A stretch of DNA of 64,000 nt, from contig NZ_CP120468.1 of NCBI RefSeq assembly GCF_029490015.1, forward strand, positions 2,170,001 to 2,234,000, read 5' to 3'. Shown in pieces: positions 14,358 through 17,488 of the stretch. How positions within the stretch are numbered: position 1 is the first letter of the stretch; the number at the start of each line of letters is the position of its first letter. The position numbers were made by a program, and so were the translations under genes. The notes below the pieces were generated by a model. It had not been told where the DNA came from and searched no databases. It saw nothing but the letters and a program-made list of their open reading frames with translations. The stretch is from Halobaculum limi (GTDB taxonomy: Archaea > Halobacteriota > Halobacteria > Halobacteriales > Haloferacaceae).

Positions 14358-14999
14358 TTACTCGTCGACTGCGACGTCTTCGTCGTCGACGTCGACGGAC
14401 GTCTCCTCTTCGGCGGCGATCTCTTCGGGCCGTGCCTCCAGCGAGAGCTTCTGGACCTCGACCCGGCGGAGCGGGTAGATGGTCTTCGCCTCGCCGTAGA
14501 TGGCCGACGAGAGCCGACCCTCGACGACGGAGTCGACGAGTTCCGCGAACGAGCGGTCCTCGGCGGCGTCCTGAACCAGGTCGATCATGATCTGGCGGAT
14601 GGCCTGCTCCTGCGAGCGGTCGGCCTTCTTCGTCGTGAACGCGACCGGGCTGACGCGGACGCGGTAGTCGTCGGTCGTGCGCACGGTGATGTGCAGGTCG
14701 ACCTTCGAGGCGCCGCGGCGCACCATCGAGCGCAGGTAGTCGCGCGTGAGTTCGTGTTGGATGAACTCGGTGTAGGCGGCGTCGGAGCCCACGTCCGTGA
14801 TCTTGAAGATCAGCTTGATGTTGTCCTGGCCCTGGTCACCGGTGATCTCACCGAGCGTCGTCTCGACCGTGCGGCCGATGACCTGGTCTGGCTCTTCTGC
14901 CATCGTCTCGCCCAGTTCCGCGCGGTCGAACTGCTCTGGCGCGAGGACGGTGTACCAGCGTTTCCCCTGTCGTTGTCGTGAGACTGATCGTTCGCTCAT
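14358..14999 (-). CDS. rps3ae: 30S ribosomal protein S3Ae (eS1)
   Basis: A 213-residue archaeal/eukaryotic small-subunit protein. Recognisable stretches are KRWYTVLAPEQFDRAELGET near the N-terminus, GRTVETTLGEITGD, RRGASKVDLHITVRTTDDYRVRV, and IYPLRRVEVQKLS near the C-terminus. It ends in an acidic tail. Its ATG overlaps the Pcc1 stop (ATGA), making it the last gene of the S15 / DHH-like / Pcc1 / S3Ae operon. Confidence 0.96.
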   Translation of the reverse strand: MSERSVSRQRQGKRWYTVLAPEQFDRAELGETMAEEPDQVIGRTVETTLGEITGDQGQDNIKLIFKITDVGSDAAYTEFIQHELTRDYLRSMVRRGASKVDLHITVRTTDDYRVRVSPVAFTTKKADRSQEQAIRQIMIDLVQDAAEDRSFAELVDSVVEGRLSSAIYGEAKTIYPLRRVEVQKLSLEARPEEIAAEEETSVDVDDEDVAVDE

Positions 15000-15409
15000 G
15001 TGTCGTGTGTGTCTGCGTCTGTGTCGTGAGCGCCGCGCGTCTCGTGCGCGTCGCTCGTGGCTGCATCGCGGCTGCCGGCCGCGTCGTTCGAGTCGACCGC
15101 GTCGGTCGCGGTCGCCGTGTCGCCTCTCATCTCCCGTCCCGTCGCGGCCACGTCGTCGGCCACGCCGAGGTTCACGAGGTAGTCGTCCACCGAAGAGAGC
15201 AGGCCGCCCGTCGTGTCCCGGTCGATCCGGGTACGAACGGTCGCACCCGCTGTCGTCGTCTGTATCTGCGCGGTGTTGTCCGGCGTGAGCGACGCCGCGA
15301 CCGTCGCGGCCGTCGACTCGTCGGCGTGGGTCGTCTCGACCGTCACCGTGCGTGCGAGCGGCGCGTCCGTCCCGTTGGTGACGCGGTCGTGTCCGTTCGG
15401 CCCGCTCAT
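14996..15409 (-). CDS. pcc1: KEOPS complex subunit Pcc1
   Basis: A 137-residue protein. The first 95 residues match Pcc1: a strand (ARTVTVETTHADESTAATVAAS), then TRIDRDTTGGLLSSVDDYLVNL, a two-layer fold that dimerises KEOPS, the complex that makes t6A in tRNA. The remaining 40 residues are a low-complexity Asp/Ala/Thr tail, probably disordered. Its ends overlap both neighbours by four bases (ATGA), so it is made together with the DHH-like protein and S3Ae. Confidence 0.88.
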   Translation of the reverse strand: MSGPNGHDRVTNGTDAPLARTVTVETTHADESTAATVAASLTPDNTAQIQTTTAGATVRTRIDRDTTGGLLSSVDDYLVNLGVADDVAATGREMRGDTATATDAVDSNDAAGSRDAATSDAHETRGAHDTDADTHDT

Positions 15410-16587
15410 CGCAGGGCCTCCCTGAAGCCGCCGATGAACGCCGTCACGTCGCCGCCGCCGAAGCGTGCGTCGCCCGCACGCCCGTGGCCGACGACGTCGG
15501 CGTCCGTCGGATCGTCACGCTCGTCTTCTTCACCGCTCGTCGCGTCGACGCCAGCACGCAGCGCCGCCGTCACGTCCGTCGACCCGTCACCGGCGGCGGC
15601 CGCGGCGTCGTCGGAGACGACGAGCGCGGCCGGTTCGGGCGACTGGTAGTCGCGGAGCAGTCGGGCGGCGGTCGACAGCGCGGGCGTATCTGCTGGATCG
15701 GTCTCCACGCGTGCGACGAACACGCCGTCGTAGCGCCCCGTCGTCGGGTCGTCGAGGAGGCCGTGCGCCCGTCGCGCGTGCTCGCGCCACGTCGTCACGG
15801 CCGCCTCCGTCGCGTCCGCGCCGAGTGCGACCGAGACACCGAGTCCCGGTTGCTCGCGGGCGAGCGCGCACAACACGTCGGCGTAGCCGCCGAGTGTCGC
15901 GAACGGCCCCGTCGGCGTCTCGTAGGGGCGGAGTGCCCGTTCGACTGCGCCGACCGACTGCATCGGTGCGTCGGTCGTCACGTCGAGTGCGAGCGCAGAG
16001 GCGAGTCGTCGGTAGTCGTCGTCTGCGGGGTCGGCGGGCAAGTCTAACTCCGCCACTAGCGCCTGCGCCGCCTCCGGATCACCGGAGAACGGCGCACGGA
16101 CGAGCGTCGAGTGTGCTAGCCCGGTCGCGATGTCGGCCGTCGGCACGGCCACGCCCGGTCGGCGCTCGACGATACCGCGTCGTTCGGCCGCTTCCAGCAG
16201 GCTCCCGCTGCCCGCGTCGCCGGGAACCGCCTCCGCGGCGACGACGCCGGCGAGGCCGACGAGCGGGTCCGGGTCGACGCCGAGTGCCGCGACGACCGCC
16301 GCCGCGACCGACGAGACCGGCTGGTCGCCCGTGTCCAGTCCCGTCCCGTTCGGCGGCGTCCAACCGAGTGCGAGCGCCGTCCCGTGGCCGTCTGGGGCCG
16401 CCGAGTCACGCGTCGATCGGACCTGAAACGCCGTGTCGCGTTCGCGAAGCGCGTTCGCGAGCAGTCCGGCCGCCGCGAGCGTGTCGCCCGTCGGGCGAGC
16501 GTACACGCGGACGAACTCGGCCGCCGACAGCGCCGAGGCTACCCGTTCGGGGTCGGCCCCTGCGTTGGCGTCGGCGGCGGTGGACAT
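15406..16587 (-). CDS. DHH/RecJ-like protein with degraded catalytic motif
   Basis: A 393-residue protein in the position where archaea usually carry a DHH-family (RecJ/GAN-like) phosphoesterase. The general layout fits: an N-terminal fold, then a C-terminal DHHA1-like part ending VVGHGRAGDARFGGGDVTAF (about residues 360-380). However, the first catalytic motif, normally containing Asp-Ala-Asp, reads ARPTGDTLAAAG (residues 30-41), and the next motif reads LALGWTP with no aspartate. Metal-dependent cleavage is therefore unlikely. It is coupled to pcc1 by a 4-base overlap. Confidence 0.72.
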   Translation of the reverse strand: MSTAADANAGADPERVASALSAAEFVRVYARPTGDTLAAAGLLANALRERDTAFQVRSTRDSAAPDGHGTALALGWTPPNGTGLDTGDQPVSSVAAAVVAALGVDPDPLVGLAGVVAAEAVPGDAGSGSLLEAAERRGIVERRPGVAVPTADIATGLAHSTLVRAPFSGDPEAAQALVAELDLPADPADDDYRRLASALALDVTTDAPMQSVGAVERALRPYETPTGPFATLGGYADVLCALAREQPGLGVSVALGADATEAAVTTWREHARRAHGLLDDPTTGRYDGVFVARVETDPADTPALSTAARLLRDYQSPEPAALVVSDDAAAAAGDGSTDVTAALRAGVDATSGEEDERDDPTDADVVGHGRAGDARFGGGDVTAFIGGFREALR

Positions 16588-16608: not shown

Positions 16609-17082
16609 TTACGCGTCGTCCTCGAGGAGGTCGACGGCGACGTCGTAGCTGTAGCGGAAGTCCTCGTCGAGTTCGTCGCCACGGTAGTAGTCGACGAGAC
16701 GACGGATCTTCGACTCGGTGTTCTGGAGTGCGCGTTTATTCTGCGCGTCCTGCTGGTTGTCCGCCATGTGCTCACGGAGGCGCACCGCGCGCTCCATCAG
16801 GTTGCGGAGGTCCTCGGGCAGGCTCGAACCGGCGTCGTGCTCGTCGAGGATCTCGGTGACCTTCTTGTCGGTCGCGAGCTTCACGTTCGGGACCGGCGTG
16901 CCCTTCACGCCCTCGTCGCGCAGTTTCAGGCCGATGACGCTCGGGTCGTGACCCTGTTCTGCCAGTTCGACGACGCGTGCTTCGATATCGTCGGCGTCGA
17001 CGTCGCTCCACTCCGGGGGTTCGTCTGCCGCGGGGTTGTCCGAACCGGACGACCCTCGACGGCGGGTGTGCATTCGTGCCAT
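16609..17082 (-). CDS. rps15: 30S ribosomal protein S15 (uS15)
   Basis: A 157-residue archaeal S15. The N-terminal extension MARMHTRRRGSSGSDNP is the usual archaeal one, followed by EARVVELAEQGHDPSVIGL, the central helix with KVTEILDEHD, and the RNA-binding core LRNLMERAVRLREHM and NTESKIRRLVDYYR. The ATG at 17082 is chosen; the open frame continues to 17196 with non-family residues. It is the promoter-proximal gene of the operon and has a strong hairpin in its leader. Confidence 0.95.
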   Translation of the reverse strand: MARMHTRRRGSSGSDNPAADEPPEWSDVDADDIEARVVELAEQGHDPSVIGLKLRDEGVKGTPVPNVKLATDKKVTEILDEHDAGSSLPEDLRNLMERAVRLREHMADNQQDAQNKRALQNTESKIRRLVDYYRGDELDEDFRYSYDVAVDLLEDDA

Positions 17083-17356: not shown

Positions 17357-17428
17357 GGGCTCGTAGATCAGTGGTAGATCGTTCCCTTGGCAGGGGAAAG
17401 GCCGTGGGTTCAAATCCCACCGAGTCCA
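17357..17428 (+). tRNA. tRNA-Ala (GGC anticodon)
   Basis: A 72-base cloverleaf with acceptor strands GGGCTCG and CGAGTCC (one G-U pair), a D-arm around AGATCAGTGGTAGATC, anticodon stem TTCCC/GGGAA with loop TTGGCAG (anticodon GGC), and a T-arm with GTTCAAATC. The discriminator is A, CCA is not encoded, and there is no intron. Confidence 0.95.
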
Positions 17429-17488
17429 CTTCTGTTTCACTCGCTCGTTGAGTGTCAGGTCCGCTCCAATAGACGTCGATACTCCGAC

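Follow-up and report, generated by a model that had tools for sequence, protein, structure and literature searches.

What does a relative of a nuclease do inside an operon of ribosomal and KEOPS genes when its active site is gone? The question is raised by a 393-aa ORF in the 64,000-nucleotide stretch of Halobaculum limi DNA analyzed here (the window). A sequence-only reading of the window had taken this ORF for a catalytically degraded form of the DHH phosphoesterase that usually occupies this slot in archaea, placed it within an S15-Pcc1-S3Ae operon and coupled to pcc1 by a 4-base overlap, and suggested that it might have become a structural partner of KEOPS or the ribosome. The ORF read-out and the family matches of the neighboring genes bore out both the operon and the overlap (Table 1). 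The gene order is S15 > RecJ2 > Pcc1 > S3Ae, where RecJ2 is the name we use for the product of the ORF; a 4-base overlap is also found between Pcc1 and S3Ae, and a gap of 21 bases separates S15 from RecJ2.

Table 1. Genes of the S15 operon and its surroundings, and regions of the RecJ2 protein, by position in the window
Feature	Coordinates	Strand	Description and support
RecJ2 (arCOG00428-type GAN/Cdc45 homologue, catalytically dead by sequence)	15406-16587	-	393 aa, ATG to TGA
Ribosomal protein S15 (uS15)	16609-17082	-	157 aa; NF006331 6e-59, PF00312, PF08069
Pcc1, KEOPS subunit	14996-15409	-	137 aa; NF011470, E 2e-14, residues 23-88
Ribosomal protein S3Ae (eS1)	14358-14999	-	213 aa; PF01015, NF003142 4.7e-84
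tRNA-Ala (GGC)	17357-17429	+	Divergent from S15 operon, ~275 bases upstream of S15
RecJ2 residues 22-60	16408-16524	-	beta1, motif I remnant (TGD), alpha2, beta2; AF2 secondary structure
RecJ2 residues 61-90	16318-16407	-	What is left of catalytic motifs II-III, shortened, with most of the DHH strand deleted
RecJ2 residues 119-236	15880-16233	-	CID-equivalent region (CMG-interaction domain in Cdc45/GAN); fragment model vs GAN 130-300
RecJ2 residues 306-393	15409-15672	-	DHHA1-like domain in degenerate form, without the GGGH motif

Neither Pfam nor NCBIfam assigned the RecJ2 protein to a family at E <= 1, and PF01368 (DHH) was not among the nine Pfam families matched at E <= 1 by 46 aligned RecJ2 sequences. 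The scattered matches that these 46 sequences did retrieve (Fe-ADH_2 in 3, with a best E of 0.00058, and eight other families in one or two rows each) were judged spurious. No S1 or OB domain was found in RecJ2 by Pfam, and a search of its own genome with RecJ2 as the query retrieved only RecJ2 itself at E <= 10. The ORF was assigned by published description and synteny: it lies between S15 and Pcc1/S3Ae in a member of the Halobacteria and is homologous to GAN/RecJ with an inactivated DHH domain, which fits haloarchaeal RecJ2 (arCOG00428; HVO_1147 in H. volcanii).

The family itself is not new. Passages of Makarova, Koonin and Kelman 2012 (PMC3307487) describe arCOG00428 as an inactivated RecJ of Halobacteria found in the S15/S3/Pcc1 neighborhood and propose a structural role for it in replication, such that the family, its inactivation, and a proposed replication role were already known. 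In the relevant passages of a 2020 review (PMC7776575), HVO_1147 is named as the H. volcanii RecJ2, the identity of the Cdc45 homologue in that species is given as an open question, RecJ1, 3, and 4 are reported from unpublished data to be non-essential even in combination, and the need for RecJ2 is given as unknown. A passage of the 2023 paper on the RecJ3/4-aRNase J complex (PMC10470531) likewise places RecJ2 in arCOG00428, which it says is predicted to include inactive nucleases. We saw no experiment on haloarchaeal RecJ2 in the titles and opening abstracts of a body of literature mostly without subscription papers and preprints. The window protein shares the slot and the inactivated DHH domain with these haloarchaeal proteins and differs in that its genus has also lost the first Asp of motif I.

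RecJ2 is found nearly throughout the class. The protein query matched 240/242 class genomes at E <= 0.01 (matches that were inspected in part, and of which the one in G021 is an intact GAN); of the two genomes that gave no match, G217 carries an intact GAN and G186, a draft of 180 contigs, was also empty with the family profile. Among 80 named haloarchaeal loci, S15, RecJ2, Pcc1, and S3Ae were all present in 76, and all hits lay on a single strand in 80/80. The four incomplete loci comprise L104 and L105, which end inside RecJ2, and L120 and L125, which gave no Pcc1 hit, while the apparent changes of gene order in 13/80 loci were ascribed to overlong starts from the ORF caller. RecJ2 and Pcc1 overlap by exactly 4 bases in 41/80 loci, and overlong called starts may hide more. 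The window protein is 43-54% identical to 39 of the other 45 rows of the 46-row alignment (which excludes L027 and L033, both trimmed in a larger alignment of 56 rows), 70-75% identical to five congeners, and 62% identical to L013; 24 columns are invariant among the 46 rows. No degenerate RecJ2 was seen in 16 genomes of other families outside the class. Hits at E <= 1 were obtained in 12 of these 16 genomes, and the proteins at those hits are 11 longer ones with motif I, DHH, and GGGH by pattern and one 82-aa fragment.

To place the loss of catalytic residues, we used the alignment of 56 RecJ2 sequences (L014, L024, L189, L192, L195, L208, and L209 were excluded as cut, overlong, or fragmentary) together with 17 outgroup GAN sequences from other families of the phylum, 4 intact haloarchaeal GAN sequences, and 29 RecJ1 sequences. 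The motif positions checked are intact in 17/17 outgroup GANs, 4/4 haloarchaeal GANs, and 29/29 RecJ1 proteins, with one exception, a haloarchaeal GAN that has Gln in place of the His preceding motif I. RecJ2 does not carry the set of motifs of an active DHH phosphoesterase, namely I (DxD), II (D), III (DHH), and IV (D). The motif II position of the window protein reads TALALGWTPP and, as had been claimed, contains no Asp, which is absent from this position in 56/56 RecJ2 rows. The second His of motif III is present in 2/56 rows and the Asp of motif IV in 3/56, and the His of GGGH is kept in only 1/56, the window protein itself (H368), with its congener L008 and L013 having D. The motif III Asp (D in 29/56) and first His (10/56) fall in a gapped stretch, and these counts were taken as alignment noise and left unused. 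Motifs I and IV are separated by a median of 121 residues in GAN and 104 in the intact haloarchaeal GANs; RecJ2 has 85, some 36 fewer than the outgroup GANs, so the strand bearing DHH is largely deleted.

Judged by its motifs, RecJ2 is catalytically dead, and the degradation is larger than the sequence-only reading had supposed, yet one of the residues on which that reading relied is not part of the common loss. The string ARPTGDTLAA does stand at residues 30-39 in place of a first metal motif with Asp-Ala-Asp, but the two motif I positions are D in 40/56 and 52/56 RecJ2 rows, with both D in 40/56. Thr at the first position occurs in 12/56 rows, comprising all 6 congeneric rows, L013, and 5 others. 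On this alignment the motif I change is a variation, found in this genus and a few others, of an enzyme that was dead already; what the RecJ2 family has in common, as read from the same rows, is that motifs II to IV are gone and that much of the strand bearing DHH is deleted. The C-terminal GGG (377-379), which had been taken for the DHHA1 motif, is ruled out as such: it aligns past the GGGH position, and five congeners read xGG. RecJ2 is, as that reading held, the counterpart of the archaeal DHH (GAN/RecJ) protein that usually occupies this slot. As for whether the loss is fixed in haloarchaea, it is nearly universal in the 56 aligned proteins, but two haloarchaeal families have an intact GAN.

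These two families, f5 and f11, carry the intact GAN in the RecJ2 slot. L213:4198-5457 is an intact GAN within S15-GAN-Pcc1-S3Ae, L214:4104-5213 is an intact GAN within S15-GAN-Pcc1, with no S3Ae hit within the stretch, and further intact loci are L220 and L221. Only 4/391 class genomes matched intact GAN at E <= 1e-25, all of them f5 or f11, and a fifth, G366, holds a C-terminal GAN fragment. The intact GAN in the same slot of two haloarchaeal families is new here, and no description of an intact GAN in haloarchaea was seen in the titles, abstracts, and passages of the literature searched. The f5 and f11 genomes with intact GAN are ~1.9-2.3 Mb in size. The slot extends beyond the class: in 16 outgroup GAN loci, picked for a second RecJ1-like hit and with some stretches cut by contig ends, GAN is neighbored by S15 in 11, by Pcc1 in 15, and by a nearby S3Ae in 7. 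The outgroup GANs keep the catalytic motifs that RecJ2 lost, and a blastp search with RecJ2 matched 15/16 of them (E 5.5e-11 to 4.8e-4).

Phylogenetic trees were consistent with this shared location. A careful tree of 46/106 rows, including 16/56 RecJ2 and 9/29 RecJ1 sequences that were analyst-picked to avoid the longest branches, joined RecJ2 with the intact haloarchaeal GANs (UFBoot/SH-aLRT 100/99) and recovered RecJ2 as a single clade (100/100), its stem measuring 2.46 changes per column; support for a clade of the four intact haloarchaeal GAN rows was low (57/75). The same groupings were recovered in a quick tree with all 106 rows (99 and 100, with a RecJ2 stem of 2.2), and grouping RecJ2 with RecJ1 was rejected on the careful tree (p-AU 0.0096). 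RecJ1 of L067 was left out due to an internal stop, and the program flagged long branches and uneven composition in the RecJ trees. In a tree of S15 from 36 analyst-picked loci, the intact-GAN loci fall together (99/93) and beside the other 24 haloarchaea at 81/91, short of the starred level, and the quick tree places the f5 RecJ1 as sister group of the 17 remaining haloarchaeal RecJ1 rows (99). On these trees, with their long branches flagged, RecJ2 descends from the S15-linked GAN lineage and not from RecJ1, and f5 and f11 are apparently early-branching haloarchaeal families. The grouping of the intact f5/f11 GAN with RecJ2 disfavors a transfer from outside the class, and the simplest reading would be one loss of the nuclease inside the class, accompanied by a burst of change.

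In a search of PDB sequences with the family profile, the best match was Thermococcus GAN (5ghr, E 6.7e-8, residues 24-382). For an AF2 model, the window protein was used together with 62 relatives (62 of the 80 named loci, the other 18 having cut or overlong frames or being close relatives of loci already included); the model reached a pLDDT of 93.0 and a pTM of 0.92. Its best Foldseek match was the Methanothermobacter RecJ-Cdc45 (7bih, E 4.5e-17). VIA aligned the model to Methanothermobacter RecJ-Cdc45 with Z 31.6 over 362 residues, to human Cdc45 (5dgo) with Z 19.6 over 361 residues, and to bacterial RecJ (5f54) with Z 23.4 over 288 residues, and the RecJ/Cdc45 structural alignments start at residues 6-12 of 393. 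The model shows the architecture of DHH domain, CID, helical stalk, and DHHA1 domain; the Thermococcus and Methanothermobacter proteins, the best sequence and structure matches respectively, share this fold including the CID-equivalent. When fragment 119-236 was folded alone (pLDDT 76.5, pTM 0.64), the first 14 VIA rows were all archaeal GAN/RecJ, with Z from 8.5 to 4.7 and alignment to GAN residues 130-300. By VIA's yardstick a Z of about 8 is modest, bacterial RecJ and Cdc45 chains were missing from the rows of this fragment, and unrelated rows, ribosomal chains included, appeared at Z 4.4 and below.

Passages of three papers (PMC4873980, PMC5484177, PMC12035558) describe two contacts of Cdc45: its DHH domain is met at the beta2 edge by the B-domain of GINS, and its CID touches MCM. 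Mapped by homology and the order of secondary structure elements, residues 22-60 of RecJ2 would form the sheet edge for the B-domain of GINS51/Psf1. The motif I retained in many members lies at the start of alpha2, which suggests a link to the GINS-facing edge beside it.

Conservation is distributed unevenly along RecJ2. With region boundaries chosen by us, mean pairwise identity is 56% for residues 22-60, 27% for 61-90, 53% for 91-124, 57% for 125-170, 46% for 171-205, 57% for 206-250, 50% for 251-300, 44% for 301-345, and 33% for 346-393. The block at 61-90, the lowest in RecJ2, is the best conserved in GAN at 67%, such that constraint is inverted around the active site, and only 1/30 of its columns reaches >= 95% conservation in RecJ2. 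Residues 206-250, which lie partly in the CID-equivalent, are conserved within RecJ2 and yet only 16% like GAN, with P221, F229, G234, and D237 invariant. Constraint on the catalytic block is relaxed, and that on the flanking parts is not; on the mapping above, the parts that meet GINS and MCM in Cdc45/GAN would be among the better conserved parts of RecJ2. Across 15 pairs from 6 loci of the genus, median dN/dS was 0.315 for RecJ2 (range 0.264-0.421), 0.175 for S15, and 0.154 for S3Ae, and pN/pS of RecJ2, again with our boundaries, was 0.43 for residues 20-125, 0.36 for 126-250, 0.32 for 251-345, and 0.60 for 346-393. Pcc1 had a high median dN/dS of 0.72, which suggests a long, fast-evolving tail; its model has 76 positions and matched only part of the protein (Table 1), and no Pfam hit was obtained.

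The fold, the retained regions, and the ancestry are most consistent with a Cdc45/GAN place in the replicative helicase. Our best explanation, to which we assign a probability of roughly 0.7, is that RecJ2 descends from an S15-linked GAN nuclease, that the nuclease activity was lost within the haloarchaea, most simply once, and that the protein was then kept by selection as a structural, Cdc45-like part of the replicative helicase (RecJ2-MCM-GINS). The edge strand of the first domain (~25-58) would still receive the GINS B-domain, the CID-equivalent (~119-236) would dock on the MCM ring, and RecJ2 would stimulate or steady MCM without cutting DNA, with the intact paralogue RecJ1 presumably supplying nuclease activity elsewhere. 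We consider it moderately likely, more specifically, that RecJ2 is the haloarchaeal Cdc45, a nuclease-dead CMG subunit made from an active GAN whose f5/f11 kin are still active, with residues 206-250 as a re-tailored MCM contact. Against a place in the replisome stand the low likeness of that same segment to GAN, the modest Z of fragment 119-236, the GINS matches of this genome, which score under the family cut-offs, the GAN-like character of RecJ1, and the AF2 fold, which shows no partner; moreover, the RecJ2 stem is so long (2.2-2.5 changes per column) that the function could have changed entirely.

Eukaryotic Cdc45 serves as a model of how such a protein would work, as it too is a nuclease-dead RecJ fold with a CID and matches RecJ2 in structure over its full length, but no common loss event is implied, the RecJ2 loss falling inside the haloarchaea. 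Passages of PMC7776575 and PMC3307487 describe Sulfolobus RecJdbh/Cdc45 and further inactive RecJ proteins of crenarchaea as inactivated RecJ in a CMG-like complex; these proteins belong to a separate lineage and are likened to RecJ2 here by description. The H. volcanii RecJ3/RecJ4-aRNase J complex (arCOG00429) similarly pairs a RecJ that has active-site residues with one lacking them, but it belongs to another arCOG, has S1 and OB domains, and is given in the abstract of PMC10470531 as RecJ3, RecJ4, and aRNase J only. For H. volcanii, our results narrow the Cdc45 question to a leading candidate with an ancestry and proposed interfaces, whose loss of the nuclease falls inside the class. By comparison with the intact-GAN haloarchaea one can study how a replisome nuclease comes to be lost, a change of the kind that also produced eukaryotic Cdc45. 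If our reading is true, f5/f11 GAN and RecJ2 would form a natural before-and-after pair for the purpose of that nuclease, and one could ask why haloarchaea, like eukaryotes, could drop it.

A structural role was already part of the sequence-only reading and appears likely, but we regard the partners named there, KEOPS (via Pcc1) or the small ribosomal subunit, as improbable. They are suggested by the 4-base overlap with pcc1, by the flanking S15 and S3Ae, and by the recurrence of all four genes in 76/80 loci. However, the same coupling is found where GAN is intact: GAN and Pcc1 overlap in 13/15 outgroup loci with a Pcc1 hit, by 4 bases in 5 of them, and the two intact haloarchaeal loci that were examined also have a 4-base overlap. 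The coupling therefore predates the inactivation and is uninformative on a new partner. The match of the fold to replisome proteins over its whole length also argues against these partners, and ribosomal chains appeared only as the weak rows noted for fragment 119-236. Another, unlikely reading would give the place of Cdc45 in haloarchaea to RecJ1 and leave RecJ2 as a pseudoenzyme, regulatory or DNA-binding, with an independent role, for example in repair. RecJ1 is GAN-like, keeps every checked motif position in 29/29 rows, is found by its query in 147/148 genomes of the phylum (where some hits may be GAN), and is the best GAN candidate in H. volcanii according to a passage of PMC7776575. Set against this, the same passages cite RecJ1 as non-essential in H. 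volcanii (unpublished), and RecJ1 falls in the other clade, not the S15-linked one.

Two further readings were considered. RecJ2 might still be an active phosphoesterase with re-routed metal ligands, to which the Asp pair of motif I in 40/56 members lends some color. We find this very improbable in view of the loss of motifs II, III, and IV and of GGGH and the shortening of the region, and with 1/30 columns conserved at residues 61-90 no new ligand set is evident there. That the gene is decaying and kept only as an operon spacer is hardly credible: it does evolve fast, as seen in its identity to most other rows, but it is present in nearly all sampled class genomes, with a within-genus dN/dS of 0.315, 24 invariant columns, and a confident fold. 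A Cdc45-like subunit remains our preferred account.

We also looked for the other DHH proteins and candidate replisome partners in the same genome. It encodes a 492-aa RecJ1 with DADG, DHH, and GGGH, a RecJ3-like protein (L007) with DGDG, DHH, and GGGH, and another four proteins with DHH domains. RecJ1 and RecJ3 are so called here for their likeness to published descriptions. L002 and L004 are DHH-domain proteins of ~500 aa, the DHH position of L004 reading DHD, and the N-terminal part of both resembles, by eye, a Rossmann/TrkA-N domain. Elsewhere in the phylum, the RecJ1 match is in separate blocks in G004, G005, and G016 and contains an internal TGA in G020, anomalies that we read as an insertion or a frameshift, the rest of the gene being intact.

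A candidate GINS partner is encoded by a 353-aa ORF of this genome, which weakly matches Sld5 (2-114) and Gins51_C (308-350), in the order of GINS51, with scores below the cut-offs (Gins51_C 21.2 and 17.9 bits vs 27; Sld5 13.2 vs 22.3). Directly before it lies an ORF with a weak match to the primase small subunit. Gins51_C (PF22090, the GINS B-domain) was matched in 19/19 genomes searched at E <= 10 and over the cut-off in 16/19, these matches being candidate GINS proteins. In addition to a GINS-sized frame, L224 (G026) and L244 (G088) each hold a second PF22090 match, which lies in an open frame of 897 aa in the former and 887 aa in the latter, and the second match of G026 is much the stronger, at E 1e-14.
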